From positions 1 to 39,491 of the IMG/VR virus record IMGVR_UViG_3300006919_000018: 39,491 bases of DNA. One strand, written 5' to 3'. Positions 32,564 to 39,491 of this stretch are shown here, piece after piece. The stretch comes from a virus. A program made the translations under genes and the position numbers. The notes beneath the pieces were generated by a model. It saw only the letters and a list, made by a program, of their open reading frames with translations, did not search any database and was not told the origin of the DNA. Within the stretch, counting starts at the first letter, position 1. Every line of letters starts with the position of its first letter.

Positions 32564-33175
32564 TCAGAACTCGGCGTCGTCAAGGTCCGCAGGCTGAACT
32601 GCCGGGGCAGCCGGTGCGGGCGTCGGCTCTAGCGCAATGCCAGCCGCAGCGCCTTCCTTCAAGCAGTCAGGGCGGTCAACCCATTTCACCACTTCCAGCT
32701 TCGGCACGACTGTCGAGCCTTTTTTGAACTGCAGCAGCTCGGCGTCTGTCATGCGCACAAGCGGTAGCTGGCCTGGTGCTGGCTGCTTGGTCAACTGCGG
32801 CGCCAGGTTTGTGATTGCCTGCCACACAGCCGCGCCTGCCTGTTCCCACGTTGCTACATTGCCGCCACCGACTGCGCAGCGCACGCTGATGCCTTTCTTC
32901 CAGCCCTCGCCTGGGCTTGGCTGCATGTTTGCCGGGCTGCTGTTCCACTTCCACTCCGGGGCTACGCCTGCGATGCCCTCACTGTGCTGCCAGCCGGTCT
33001 TCATGCTTTCAATATCCAGCACGATGCCTTTTGACATATCCATCGGCGTTTTGTTGCCCCCGTCGCGGATAAAGAAACTGCGCGGCGGGACCGAGCCGTC
33101 CTGAGTGCCACGAGCCGACCATGCAATGAACGGGCCTGCTGCGCCGCCTTCGTTTCCGGTATCCAATACAAACAT
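32564..33175 (-). CDS. ssb: Single-stranded DNA-binding protein
   Basis: 203 aa from ATG 33175 (AAGGAC eight bases upstream). The first 160 residues are beta-rich with aromatic pairs (FIAWSARG, SFFIRDGG, GWQHSEG, PEWKWN, GEGWKKGISV). The end is an Ala/Pro-rich linker and the acidic tip PADLDDAEF. The acidic tip is the usual partner-docking end of SSBs. Position after the exonuclease gene and before the primase-helicase supports the call. The OB fold itself is inferred. Confidence 0.78.
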   Translation of the reverse strand: MFVLDTGNEGGAAGPFIAWSARGTQDGSVPPRSFFIRDGGNKTPMDMSKGIVLDIESMKTGWQHSEGIAGVAPEWKWNSSPANMQPSPGEGWKKGISVRCAVGGGNVATWEQAGAAVWQAITNLAPQLTKQPAPGQLPLVRMTDAELLQFKKGSTVVPKLEVVKWVDRPDCLKEGAAAGIALEPTPAPAAPAVQPADLDDAEF

Positions 33176-33240
33176 TTTGTCGTCCTTTTCGTTTTTGACG
33201 TTGTTAGCCGCTGCAGCCCAGCGGTCAGGCATTCACGGCG

Positions 33241-36688: not shown

Positions 36689-36881
36689 CGATCTGCGCGA
36701 AACTCTGCTGGCATACTTTGCCATCGTGCCATCGGCCTGTGCCGACATGGCCGCCAGCGATCTTGGCCTCGGCAAGCGAGAGGTGCAGAACATGCTGCAT
36801 AAAATGGACGATGACGGAGATTTGCTGATGCGCAACTCTTGGTATCGCCTAAGCGAGAGGGCAAAGCAATATGGCAAATGA
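36681..36881 (+). CDS. Small winged-helix-like protein
   Basis: 66 aa with GAGGAG before ATG 36681. Sequence LLAYFAIVPSACADMAASDLGLGKREVQNMLHKMDDDGDLLMR followed by WYRLSE resembles a compact winged helix: helix, helix, recognition helix, then a two-strand wing. It overlaps the GcrA-like gene by eight bases, pairing two DNA-binding proteins. Confidence 0.68.
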   Translation: MADDLRETLLAYFAIVPSACADMAASDLGLGKREVQNMLHKMDDDGDLLMRNSWYRLSERAKQYGK

Positions 36882-37038
36882 GGAAGGCTTTTTCAAACTT
36901 GACCCATGGCCAAAAAAGACAGGAGTCAAGCCAACGCCAGGCAACCTGCAGGCATACAGCCTGTATTACCGCAAAGACATTCCTGTGACGCTGTCGAAGG
37001 CGCCCTGGGAGAAGCAAGAGGAGAACAGCAATGACTGA
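36871..37038 (+). CDS. 55-aa early protein, function unknown
   Basis: ATG 36871 overlaps the winged-helix gene by eleven bases and the stop overlaps the next ATG by eight. It is rich in Lys, Pro and aromatic residues (DPWPKKTGVKPTPGNLQAYSLYYRK). It is absent from usual length-limited gene calls. Function unknown. Confidence 0.6.
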   Translation: MANEEGFFKLDPWPKKTGVKPTPGNLQAYSLYYRKDIPVTLSKAPWEKQEENSND

Positions 37039-37240
37039 CAAGGAAAAGTTTGCGTATCAAAAGACGCAGTATAAGCCGATCACGATACGTGGCACGACGT
37101 TCATCAGCCAGACAGCCGCGGCAAAGCACTTTGGCATATCTACCCACACAGTCAGCAACGCGGCCAAGATCGGGCGCGAGGATTACATCGGCCTGGGCCG
37201 CGGTTACAAGGAGAAGACAAATGCCACACGGGCAGGGTGA
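37031..37240 (+). CDS. NUMOD1-like HTH protein A
   Basis: 69 aa. PITIRGTTFISQTAAAKHFGISTHTVSNAAKIG is followed by DYIGLG. This is the NUMOD1/HTH type of repeat often found beside phage HNH endonucleases, here without a nuclease domain. It overlaps the next gene by twenty bases. Confidence 0.7.
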   Translation: MTDKEKFAYQKTQYKPITIRGTTFISQTAAAKHFGISTHTVSNAAKIGREDYIGLGRGYKEKTNATRAG

Positions 37241-37535
37241 ATATCAGCGCATGGTCAGCAAGCCGGTGACAATACGCGGCGTGACTTACCGCAGCATTGG
37301 CGAGGCTGCGAGGGCGCTTGATGTCTCGCACACGAATATCTCAAAGGCTATGGCGCGTGGGACAACTGATTTTATCGGCCTGCGTCAGCCACATAACCGC
37401 CGTCCAGTGACGTTGGATGGCGTCTGGTATCCGAGCCTGCAGCGGGCTTCGATTGGCAGCGGCATCGGGCTAAAGCGCCTGCGCCGGATGCTAAACAGCG
37501 ATGACATAAGAGCGGAGTGGGCCGATGGCAATTAA
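37221..37535 (+). CDS. NUMOD1-like HTH protein B with two repeats
   Basis: 104 aa from ATG 37221 (AAGGAG seven bases upstream); a start at 37050 is rejected as out of keeping with coupling. It has PVTIRGVTYRSIGEAARALDVSHTNISKAMARG then DFIGL, closely matching protein A. A third, weaker copy follows (PVTLDGVWYPSLQRASIGSG ... RRML). Together the two genes hold three such DNA-binding repeats without a nuclease. Likely a phage DNA-binding or regulatory protein. Confidence 0.7.
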   Translation: MPHGQGEYQRMVSKPVTIRGVTYRSIGEAARALDVSHTNISKAMARGTTDFIGLRQPHNRRPVTLDGVWYPSLQRASIGSGIGLKRLRRMLNSDDIRAEWADGN

Positions 37536-37713
37536 ACTAACAGCAGACGAGGCGTGGGCCGTTTACTTCGCTCTTGACGACAGACTGGCCGCTCGACGGC
37601 AGGGTCTTGGAACGAAGCACGGCTACGTATTGACAGAGGAGGATCACAAGAAGCTGCAGGGGCGCTATCTACGCGCTGCGCTGGTGCTGGAGCGGATTGA
37701 GGGGGAGAAGTGA
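37525..37713 (+). CDS. 62-aa helical early protein
   Basis: It overlaps the HTH gene by eleven bases. Charged helices (DEAWAVYFALDDRLAARRQG, EDHKKLQGRYLRAALVLERI). It ends in EGEK at the first of four conserved stop-start junctions, so it belongs with the following cassette. Function unknown. Confidence 0.68.
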   Translation: MAIKLTADEAWAVYFALDDRLAARRQGLGTKHGYVLTEEDHKKLQGRYLRAALVLERIEGEK

Positions 37714-37961
37714 TGAGTGATGATATTATAGAACCAAGCGACGTTGAGCAAGCTGCGTGGCCACAGGCGACGGAAGCATACGTAAGGGGCATGGAAAACC
37801 GCATCGAGGAACTGGAGGCCAAGCTGGAGAAGGCGGTGGAGTTTGTTGAGTGTGCAATCAACTATGCCAAGACATGCGGTGCTAGGTTTCCCATGGATCA
37901 CGCCCTCACCACCCTCGCAGAACTAACTAATGAACGTAGTGACGAGAAAGGAGAGAAGTGA
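37713..37961 (+). CDS. Coiled-coil cassette protein 1
   Basis: 82 aa beginning MSDDIIEPSD with ATG one base into the previous stop. A central coiled coil (MENRIEELEAKLEKAVEFVE) with two Cys follows, then LTTLAELTNERSDEKGEK. It shares start, coiled coil and GEK end with the next two genes, so the three are paralogous cassettes. No enzyme motif. Confidence 0.72.
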   Translation: MSDDIIEPSDVEQAAWPQATEAYVRGMENRIEELEAKLEKAVEFVECAINYAKTCGARFPMDHALTTLAELTNERSDEKGEK

Positions 37962-38266
37962 TGAGTGATGATCTGGTGAAGCGGGCAAGGCATAATGCTA
38001 TGGCTGACATGCCGCACTACGCAAGTGTTGAGCTGATTGAAGTAATGGCCGACCGCATCGAAGAACTGGAGGAACGCCTCAAGGCGGCAAGAGAGGACGC
38101 CAATGAAGCCGAGACATATGCGGCAGAAATGGAGGACAAGCTGAAGGAGATGTCAGAAATGGAGGACAAGCTGGCGAAGGTGCAGGCCCGGCTCGAGAAG
38201 ATAGCAGCGGCAGACACACAGGCGTGGGCCTTGCGTGCGCTGGCAGATATCAAGGGAGAAAAGTAA
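37961..38266 (+). CDS. Coiled-coil cassette protein 2
   Basis: 101 aa beginning MSDDLVKRARHN. The coiled coil is longer than in copy 1 (MADRIEELEERLKAAREDANEAE, then two MEDKL units). It ends ALADIKGEK. The leader GGAGAGAAGTGATGAGTGA before it both ends copy 1 and starts this gene. Confidence 0.72.
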   Translation: MSDDLVKRARHNAMADMPHYASVELIEVMADRIEELEERLKAAREDANEAETYAAEMEDKLKEMSEMEDKLAKVQARLEKIAAADTQAWALRALADIKGEK

Positions 38267-38571
38267 TGAGTGACGATCTGGTGAAGCGGTTGCGTGAGGG
38301 TGATGAGTTCGAACAGTCTATGATGGCTGAAAGAGCAGCCGACAGCATCGAGGAACTGGAACTTGAGGTGGAGACATGGAAATCTCGTGCTATCCATCAG
38401 AATGAAGTAGCGGGGAGGCTTGAGGCGAAGCTATCGGAGAGCGAAGCTCTCTTGGCGAAGGCTGTGGAGGCTTTGGAAGAAGGTATGCGTTGCACCAGTG
38501 AACATGGCGGCGCAGCGAAGTTTCTTCGTATCGCCCGCACCACCCTCGCAGAACTGAAAGGAGAGAAGTGA
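38266..38571 (+). CDS. Coiled-coil cassette protein 3
   Basis: 101 aa beginning MSDDLVKRLREGDEF; ATG 38266 is used, as the longer frame from 38224 overlaps copy 2 out of frame. A coiled coil (ADSIEELELEVETWKS, EAKLSESEALLAKAVEALEEG) and the end RTTLAELKGEK match copies 1 and 2. One Cys lies in MRCTSEHGG. Such short coiled-coil genes occur in phages beside variable early regions. Confidence 0.72.
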   Translation: MSDDLVKRLREGDEFEQSMMAERAADSIEELELEVETWKSRAIHQNEVAGRLEAKLSESEALLAKAVEALEEGMRCTSEHGGAAKFLRIARTTLAELKGEK

Positions 38572-38780
38572 TGAGTGAAGCACCATTCCGCCTAGAACTT
38601 GCAGAAGTTGAGCATCACGAGAACGGCGATGCGACATACAAGTTCGACATGGATGAAGACGCAGCAAAGTATGTAGCGCAGGAAGGCATGAAGCTGATGC
38701 TATACTGCGGTGTGTCAAAGGTAAATATGCAGGACGTTTATGACTGGATACTCAGTCAGGCGGAGAAGGCTACATCGTAA
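38571..38780 (+). CDS. Small acidic early protein
   Basis: 69 aa beginning MSEAPFRLELAEVEHHENGDATY after the fourth copy of the junction sequence. It has a beta-type first half and a helical end (QDVYDWILSQAEKA). Its last bases overlap the end of the leftward nuclease gene by 11 bases, marking where the two units meet. Function unknown. Confidence 0.72.
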   Translation: MSEAPFRLELAEVEHHENGDATYKFDMDEDAAKYVAQEGMKLMLYCGVSKVNMQDVYDWILSQAEKATS

Positions 38781-38802
38781 TATCGCCGCCTAGTTCTTTT
38801 TT
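38759..38802 (+). terminator. Possible terminator of the rightward unit
   Basis: GGCGG (38759-38763) and CCGCC (38786-38790) could form a weak hairpin with a large loop. TAGTTCTTTTTT follows. The stem is short for a terminator, so this is tentative. Confidence 0.3.
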
Positions 38803-39168
38803 AAGCCAGCGCAGGTCGTTTATCATGGCGACCTGCGTAAACTCGCGGTCAGGCAGGAATAGCTCCTTGCGATCCCGCCAGATGTCGCCAGAGAAAATTC
38901 GCATCAGTCCAATGTCCAGAGCGATGCAGCAATAATAATTTGCCAGCGTAGTCATGCGAGGCCGCTGGAACTTATACCCGCCGCTGGTGCGCTTGCGCCT
39001 ACTGCTAGACTTTACCTCAACGCTCACCAAACGGCCATCGCCTGCATGCACTACCAGATCAAAAGCACCGTCAATTCTGCTTGCTTCAAGCCCAGCGTAG
39101 GCTTCCAGCAGGTAGCAGGCGAGGTATTCACCAGCCCGCCCGTGGCGTATGCTGATGGTGCGGGTCAT
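38770..39168 (-). CDS. PD-(D/E)XK nuclease, last gene of the leftward unit
   Basis: 132 aa. HGRAGEYLACYLLEAYAGLEA supplies Glu14, FDLVV gives Asp37, and VSVEVKSSSR gives Glu51 and Lys53: a complete PD-(D/E)XK site of the small endonuclease type. The remaining residues (FQRPRMTTLANYYCCIAL) continue the fold. It shares a base with the upstream 62-aa gene and lies after the lysis genes on the circle. A role in DNA processing or late host DNA damage is possible. Confidence 0.75.
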   Translation of the reverse strand: MTRTISIRHGRAGEYLACYLLEAYAGLEASRIDGAFDLVVHAGDGRLVSVEVKSSSRRKRTSGGYKFQRPRMTTLANYYCCIALDIGLMRIFSGDIWRDRKELFLPDREFTQVAMINDLRWLKKELGGDITM

Positions 39169-39356
39169 TATTCGTGATAGTGCCTGTAACTTGTCTGGCA
39201 GTGGTCAGGGCCAAACACCCGCACCCACGCCCGCCAGAAGCGGCTGTCACCCTGTAGCCGCCACGCTCGAGAGCAAAGGCTTTCAGATGTATCACGGTAT
39301 GATACATCGTGCATGATGCGGCTGGTTGACTGGATTAATTGCAGAGCGCGTTCCAT
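39168..39356 (-). CDS. Small Cys/His phage protein
   Basis: 62 aa. The C-terminal half has LCSRAWRLQGDSRFWRAWVRVFGPDHCQTSYR. The GPDHCxxS ending is one I associate with short phage proteins of unknown role. It starts inside the end of the o-spanin gene and follows it when the circle is closed. Confidence 0.65.
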   Translation of the reverse strand: MERALQLIQSTSRIMHDVSYRDTSESLCSRAWRLQGDSRFWRAWVRVFGPDHCQTSYRHYHE

Positions 39357-39491
39357 TTCTCGTTGGCCACCACTGTGTCTGTCAGAAAACTGCGGTCATT
39401 TTCTGACAGCCATATCAGAGTTTCCTCACTGAAATATAACGGCGAGGCGATGTCGCAGTAATTGCTAACGACGATCTTGCCGCAGCCAGTG
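39335..39491 (-). CDS. Rz1-like outer-membrane spanin lipoprotein, 3' part
   Basis: The frame of the o-spanin that runs off the left edge continues here: within the repeat it encodes SENDRSFLTDTV and, past 39369, VANEKWNALCN to the TAA at 39337-39335. The unique 34 bases (39335-39368) are needed to finish the protein. The last 22 bases overlap the start of the 62-aa gene (ATG 39356). Confidence 0.72.
   Translation of the reverse strand, partial: TGCGKIVVSNYCDIASPLYFSEETLIWLSENDRSFLTDTVVANEKWNALCN
39369..39491. repeat. Terminal direct repeat, right copy
   Basis: Identical to bases 1-123. It includes the 11-bp inverted repeat (39379-39409). Confidence 0.97.

Follow-up and report, generated by a model that had tools for sequence, protein, structure and literature searches.

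Short conserved boundary sequences of lambdoid phages have been proposed as sites of homologous exchange (Susskind and Botstein, 1978; Clark et al., 2001, for HK620; as cited in PMC3233612 and PMC3029335). Whether phage mosaicism arises by exchange at such sequences or by random joining followed by selection is debated, and the boundary model is disputed on the ground that most boundaries lack such a sequence (PMC3029335, PMC3233612). The Ea22 proteins are likewise mosaic, with a coiled coil and a common, unexplained +GE ending (PMC7093339, PMC10834534). Cassettes with the same blocks and junctions as those described below are present, singly or in pairs, in two cultured phages, roseophage SIO1 (gp13 and its neighbour) and CRP-831 (gene 19), whose records annotate them only as hypothetical or numbered genes and give no family or mechanism.

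With the lambdoid boundary model, as given in the citing papers, the present locus shares conserved short DNA at gene ends and mosaics that respect gene ends. It differs from the model described there in that 66 contigs from many lineages of phage carry one and the same element, at a total of 77 gene ends, in that synonymous variation is nearly absent, and in that blocks also lie within genes, so that parts of proteins are exchanged. With lambda Ea22/Ead (PF13935) it shares variable parts around a coiled coil, mosaic genes, a portable DUF551 domain and the +GE ending, whereas for Ea22 a single gene or a small number of genes is described, in which the C-terminal domain is exchanged, rather than a row of cassettes with four seams (PMC7093339, PMC10834534). 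A reading made from the DNA letters alone (hereafter the sequence-only reading) had taken the row for an unrecognised modular system; its general kind, mosaicism at short conserved boundaries, has already been proposed for lambdoid phages, and no description of this particular cassette pool was found in the open-access literature. Taken as a single explanation, the stretch is probably an accessory-gene island of a tailed phage in which coiled-coil genes would be shuffled by homologous exchange at short boundary sequences.

Phage genome and layout of the cassette island

The window, meaning the whole stretch of DNA that was analysed, corresponds to a 39,491-base viral record in IMG/VR. Its first 124 bp (1–124) are repeated directly at its other end (39368–39491), and the join of the two ends is crossed by contigs L011 and L137. 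The record is classed as linear, yet from the 124-bp terminal repeat and the continuity of L011 across the join it probably represents the entire genome of a phage, ~39.4 kb long and circularly permuted. The minus strand carries structural genes (portal, major head protein, terminase and a virion protein with an endolysin domain), and the plus strand from ~35 kb to 38.8 kb carries small early-type genes. Coordinates of the island, its genes and its conserved parts are given in Table 1.

Table 1. Features of the cassette island and its borders, in window coordinates.
Feature	Coordinates	Strand	Basis or remark
Upstream flanking backbone gene, NUMOD1/HTH-like, 104 aa	37221..37535	+	PF07453, E=5e-5
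Cassette island	37525..38776	+	wholly missing in syntenic relative L137
62-aa gene, ends RIEGEK with first junction	37525..37713	+	in L219, L079, L146; absent from L137
Junction 1	37702..37720	+	one mismatch to motif
Cassette c1, 82 aa: MSDDIIEP..ENRIEELEAKLEKAV..LTTLAELTNERSDEKGEK	37713..37961	+	sequence
CENTRE block of c1 (ENRIEELE)	37794..37817	+	sequence
First half of TAIL in c1, CTCGCAGAACT	37914..37924	+	21-22 bp in-frame insertion before AAAGGAGA
Junction 2	37946..37968	+	23 bp identical to junction 4
Cassette c2, 101 aa	37961..38266	+	N-part 86% aa to L044/L142/L143; C-part 94% to L219
CENTRE block of c2 (ADRIEELE)	38048..38071	+	end point of blastn matches of six contigs
Junction 3	38255..38273	+	exact motif
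Cassette c3, 101 aa	38266..38571	+	N-part 96% aa identical to L015
CENTRE block of c3 (ADSIEELE)	38338..38361	+	sequence comparison
LAKAVEAL block of c3	38452..38475	+	sequence comparison
TAIL element, exact consensus ACCCTCGCAGAACTGAAAGGAGA	38542..38564	+	pattern scans
Junction 4	38556..38578	+	23 bp identical to junction 2
Last island gene, 69 aa, no coil	38571..38780	+	relatives at 27-52% aa in >20 other contigs
Convergent flanking gene, phrog_5018, weak UPF0102/PDDEXK similarity	38770..39168	-	downstream border of the island

Successive genes of the island are linked by a stop-start motif, GGAGARAAGTRATGAGTGA, which was found exactly at 37950–37968, 38255–38273 and 38560–38578 and with one mismatch (GGGGAGAAGTGATGAGTGA) at 37702–37720; a fifth, weaker copy at 37020 has three mismatches. 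Shuffled sequences (n=100) contained a mean of 0.03 such motifs, and none reached the observed five. The shared junction sequence reported in the sequence-only reading was thus recovered, together with the 23-base identity of its second and fourth copies. Each junction codes for (K)GEK, holds the Shine-Dalgarno sequence GGAGA and ends in a stop codon (TGA or TAA) overlapping the ATG of the next gene, so that the same bases do serve, as had been proposed, as protein end, ribosome site, stop and start. Two details were revised. In the mechanical list of open reading frames an overlapping GTG, one codon ahead of the junction ATG, had been taken as the start; and conserved DNA reaches further upstream than had been noted (ACCACCCTCGCAGAACT at 37908–37924 and 38539–38555).

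The three adjacent proteins also proved alike in their MSDD start, RIEELE coiled-coil core and GEK end, c1 being the most diverged, with an MSDDIIEP start and a tail split by an insertion. An AlphaFold2 model of c3 (pLDDT 85) consists of one 65-residue helix (residues 14–78) with short helices at both ends, and the heptad score exceeded that of all shuffles for c1 and c2, not for c3. A central coiled coil flanked by variable parts, as in Ea22-type proteins, is accordingly predicted from the c3 model and from the c1 and c2 heptads. Pfam and PHROG scans of the window cassettes returned only coiled-coil look-alikes with low scores below Pfam's curated cut-offs, which were not accepted. The PF13935 profile matched 0/50 cassette proteins at E<=0.01 and none of the window cassettes, and the cassettes were therefore not filed in the Ead_Ea22 family.

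Roseobacter phages were the nearest named sequences with the cassette feature. A tblastn search of c3 against named phages found nothing, so that the tie to these phages comes from blastn and ORF reading. The TAIL element was absent from the two host genomes checked, a START pattern scan of genomes gave nine scattered matches, and the plasmids searched for the cassette feature gave no match.

Conservation of the blocks as DNA

Four short blocks, START (MSDDLVKRLR), CENTRE (ADRIEELE), LAKAVEAL and TAIL (TLAELKGE plus the stop-start), are found again and again in >100 contigs of environmental phages, with exchange of the segments that lie between them. A set of 154 distinct cassette proteins was obtained by degenerate peptide pattern scans of viral contigs, and each was split at the central block; the contigs, mostly metagenomic, were collected via the blocks under study. 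Since only fully degenerate patterns were used, the codon results below are independent of this collection.

The degenerate pattern for TLAELKGE (16,384 spellings) gave 99 matches, 42 of them exactly ACCCTCGCAGAACTGAAAGGAGA and 78 within 2 mismatches of it; the rest were background, 4–8 mismatches off. A frame-independent scan for TAIL DNA returned 80 copies, of which 77 lie in the LAELKGE frame and <=16 codons from a stop. Codon agreement within TAIL was 0.92, against 0.35 expected from the codon usage of the same genes (24 contigs). Observed and expected codon identity were 0.63 vs 0.33 for START, 0.71 vs 0.32 for LAKAVEAL and 0.54 vs 0.39 for CENTRE, which is the least constrained block at the DNA level, and only moderately so. 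For homologous C-part pairs, DNA agreement at identical residues was 0.95 in the tail and 0.77 in adjacent DNA. The orientation of TAIL was uniform in 26/26 contigs with >=2 copies, and TAIL also closes other kinds of gene, such as a Cro-type HTH gene in L090 and a Lar gene in L120.

The main rival to the recombination reading is that the blocks, chiefly TAIL and the junction, are held constant as an efficient signal for translation coupling, shuffling merely following from the fact that they are shared. Consistent with this, AAAGGAGA, the 3' half, forms a Shine-Dalgarno sequence with the usual spacing, the stop and start codons overlapping, nearly all TAIL copies (77/80) stand at gene ends, and the START block, which is 3' of the ATG, is constrained as well. 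The rival is weakened by the behaviour of CTCGCAGAACT, which lies 5' of the ribosome site and is still exact where an insertion of 21–25 bp displaces it (L012, L013, L014, L087, L147, L163, L174 and c1 of the window). In addition, no conserved RNA fold was found at the junctions, and CENTRE and LAKAVEAL, being inside genes, cannot act on initiation. Translation coupling as the whole explanation is conceivable and rather unlikely.

Ordinary conservation of a functional coiled-coil core and of the LAELKGE tail peptide would account for the peptides being conserved and the reading frame always being kept, but such protein-level constraint is contradicted by the fixation of synonymous codons far beyond that in adjacent homologous DNA, and also by the discordance of N- and C-parts; as the only cause it is very unlikely.

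Two side observations concern TAIL. An insert of ~24 bp, palindrome-rich and in frame (AAGCAGCGTTAGCTGCGCTAACTTG, coding for SSVSCANL), is near-identical within the TAIL of seven contigs (L012:3184, L013:3644, L014:2866, L087:3438, L147:2950, L163 and L174) and looks like a tiny mobile palindromic element. Known parts recognised in cassette or tail-capped proteins are a Cro/CI-type HTH (PF01381; L090:6604-6921), a restriction-alleviation protein Lar (PF14354; L120:3525-3887) and DUF551 (PF04448; L146:6949-7287).

Exchange of segments and of whole cassettes

Cassettes that shared one half seldom shared the other. The C-part was also common to 6/47 inter-contig pairs with the same N-part, and the N-part to 6/53 pairs with the same C-part (11–13%). 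Among other ORFs from the same loci, taken as a control, pairs sharing N also shared C in 611/959 cases (64%) and pairs sharing C also shared N in 611/801 (76%). The corresponding Fisher values (p=6e-19 and 9e-25) are indicative only, the pairs not being independent; the effect is large. The 74 contigs form at least 17–31 sequence clusters, and neither contigs nor pairs are independent.

Individual alignments locate the breakpoints. One whole cassette, beginning at the A of ATGAGTGA and reaching into the tail, is 99% identical between contigs L012 and L014, whose DNA is unrelated on either side of it. Base by base, c3, L012 and L013 share a ~100-bp identical middle segment bounded by CENTRE and LAKAVEAL, and the wider middle segment of c3 (38337–38484) has 95% DNA identity to L012, L013 and L014. 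The blastn matches of six contigs to c2 (37960–38071/2) begin at its start codon and break off with the final base of ADRIEELE. These alignments show segments of different cassettes in new combinations that meet at the blocks. Ends of blastn matches fell in blocks in 52% of cases vs 38% for random positions, a modest excess, so that some exchanges took place elsewhere; judged from these match ends, exchange is biased towards the blocks and not confined to them, and the excess carries no weight in the preferred reading. The junction, which the sequence-only reading had put forward as the exchange site, is one such place (the whole cassette of L012 and L014), and exchange also occurs within genes, at ADRIEELE and LAKAVEAL.

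Whole cassettes vary between the same flanking genes. Contig L137 is syntenic over the early region (70–85% nucleotide identity, with 87% aa identity for the convergent flanking gene); its homologue of the upstream HTH gene (64% aa) is followed directly by the convergent gene, the block 37525–38776 of the window is missing, and the junction motif was not found in L137. Contig L219 is syntenic on both sides (window 36810–37709 at 75% and 38783–39460 at 80%; upstream gene 90% aa) and its island holds four different cassettes, one of which shares only its last 138 bp with c2. The same flanks therefore enclose no cassette in L137, three in the window and four different ones in L219, and in L146 relatives of several island-border genes surround cassettes, one with a DUF551 domain. 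At gene boundaries the same short DNA borders different or unrelated modules, and the same site has different content in L137, the window and L219, as in boundary mosaicism. These alignments show that, while the flanking genes stay the same, cassettes have been added, removed or replaced by others.

The sequence-only reading had suggested that cassettes are gained or lost by recombination at the junction and that their number and order be compared in relatives. Number and content both vary across L137, the window, L219 and L146, and of its proposal gain and loss are upheld by L137 and L219; the breakpoints fit homologous recombination at the boundary, which we infer. Diverged junctions in relatives and unrelated proteins, which it had named as evidence against the idea, were not what was found.

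Tandem duplication and divergence of a single gene under vertical inheritance would explain a tandem layout with a common start, core and end. It is contradicted by the low number of same-contig cassette pairs that share a segment (3/49), which argues that the row did not arise in this way; the closest relatives of the several segments are spread over different contigs, L137 is without the whole island, and this origin is extremely unlikely. Equally improbable is an apparent mosaic made by chimeric metagenome assembly at short repeats, for although the relatives come mostly from metagenomes and the blocks are repeated, assembly words are usually longer than the blocks, a second contig (L011) matches window 38080–39491 at 99.93%, two cassettes with these junctions stand in tandem in the isolate roseophage SIO1, both matches recurring with the same spacing in its strain records, the element is also present in isolate CRP-811, and occurrence in the isolates SIO1, CRP-811 and CRP-831 means that the arrangement is not only a product of assembly.

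Proposed mechanism and function of the proteins

Under the preferred reading, homologous exchange at the blocks, co-infecting phages would recombine at identical blocks of 18–26 bp, via short-homology strand annealing or RecA. The minimal pairing segment is reported as 23–27 bp for Red beta and 31–34 bp for RecA (PMC3945230); the TAIL element, at 23–26 bp, matches the Red beta segment, and the seams as a whole (18–26 bp) lie near the Red beta value and below that of RecA. Since each block would fix the reading frame and TAIL would also bring the ribosome site and start of the next gene, every exchange at a block would leave translatable, translationally coupled genes, and this could by itself let the blocks persist. 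A further step, in which the constancy of TAIL and its partner blocks in DNA would be due to their serving as dedicated exchange points, a 'connector standard' for in-frame swap, addition or fusion of accessory protein segments among many unrelated phages, is put forward as a tentative idea that is probably not correct; in addition, a phage or host protein may recognise the blocks.

The window phage has two PDDEXK nucleases, one of which also matches a RusA-like profile; no annealing protein (RecT/Erf/Sak) was recognised among its genes, and no known relative was found for the 222-aa gene adjoining the nucleases. Assignment of 32564–33232 as a CRP-811-type single-strand binding protein, guessed from gene order, was tested and was not supported.

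Like lambda Ea22, the cassette proteins could be early accessory adaptors, with swapped ends that would target the host or defences. Such accessory functions against host targets or defences are proposed with low confidence, on the basis of the Ea22 analogy and of the Lar and DUF551 parts. If the accessory ends do act on host defences, the pool would provide environmental phages with a combinatorial stock of parts for counter-defence. The seams resemble natural splice points for gene shuffling, with many environmental phages drawing on a common pool of pieces. A natural gene pool with the same 23–26 bp seam at dozens of gene ends, and with further seams inside genes, makes the boundary-exchange model testable by recoding the seams.

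Some minor observations were made on lambda and on the genes bordering the cassettes. Lambda ea22 (J02459 near 29847, L339) ends in AAAGGAGAG-TGA, the same letters as the ribosome-site half of the tail, and no lambda gene starts right after it; the +GE ending of Ea22 may be a ribosome-binding site read as protein. Some relatives of the 69-aa last island gene (..DVYDWI..), which belongs to no known family, adjoin cassettes. The NUMOD/HTH-like genes at 37031–37240 and 37221–37535 are adjacent paralogues (37% aa), and further paralogous matches near the NUMOD/HTH-like genes of L137 and L219 point to a small variable family beside the island.
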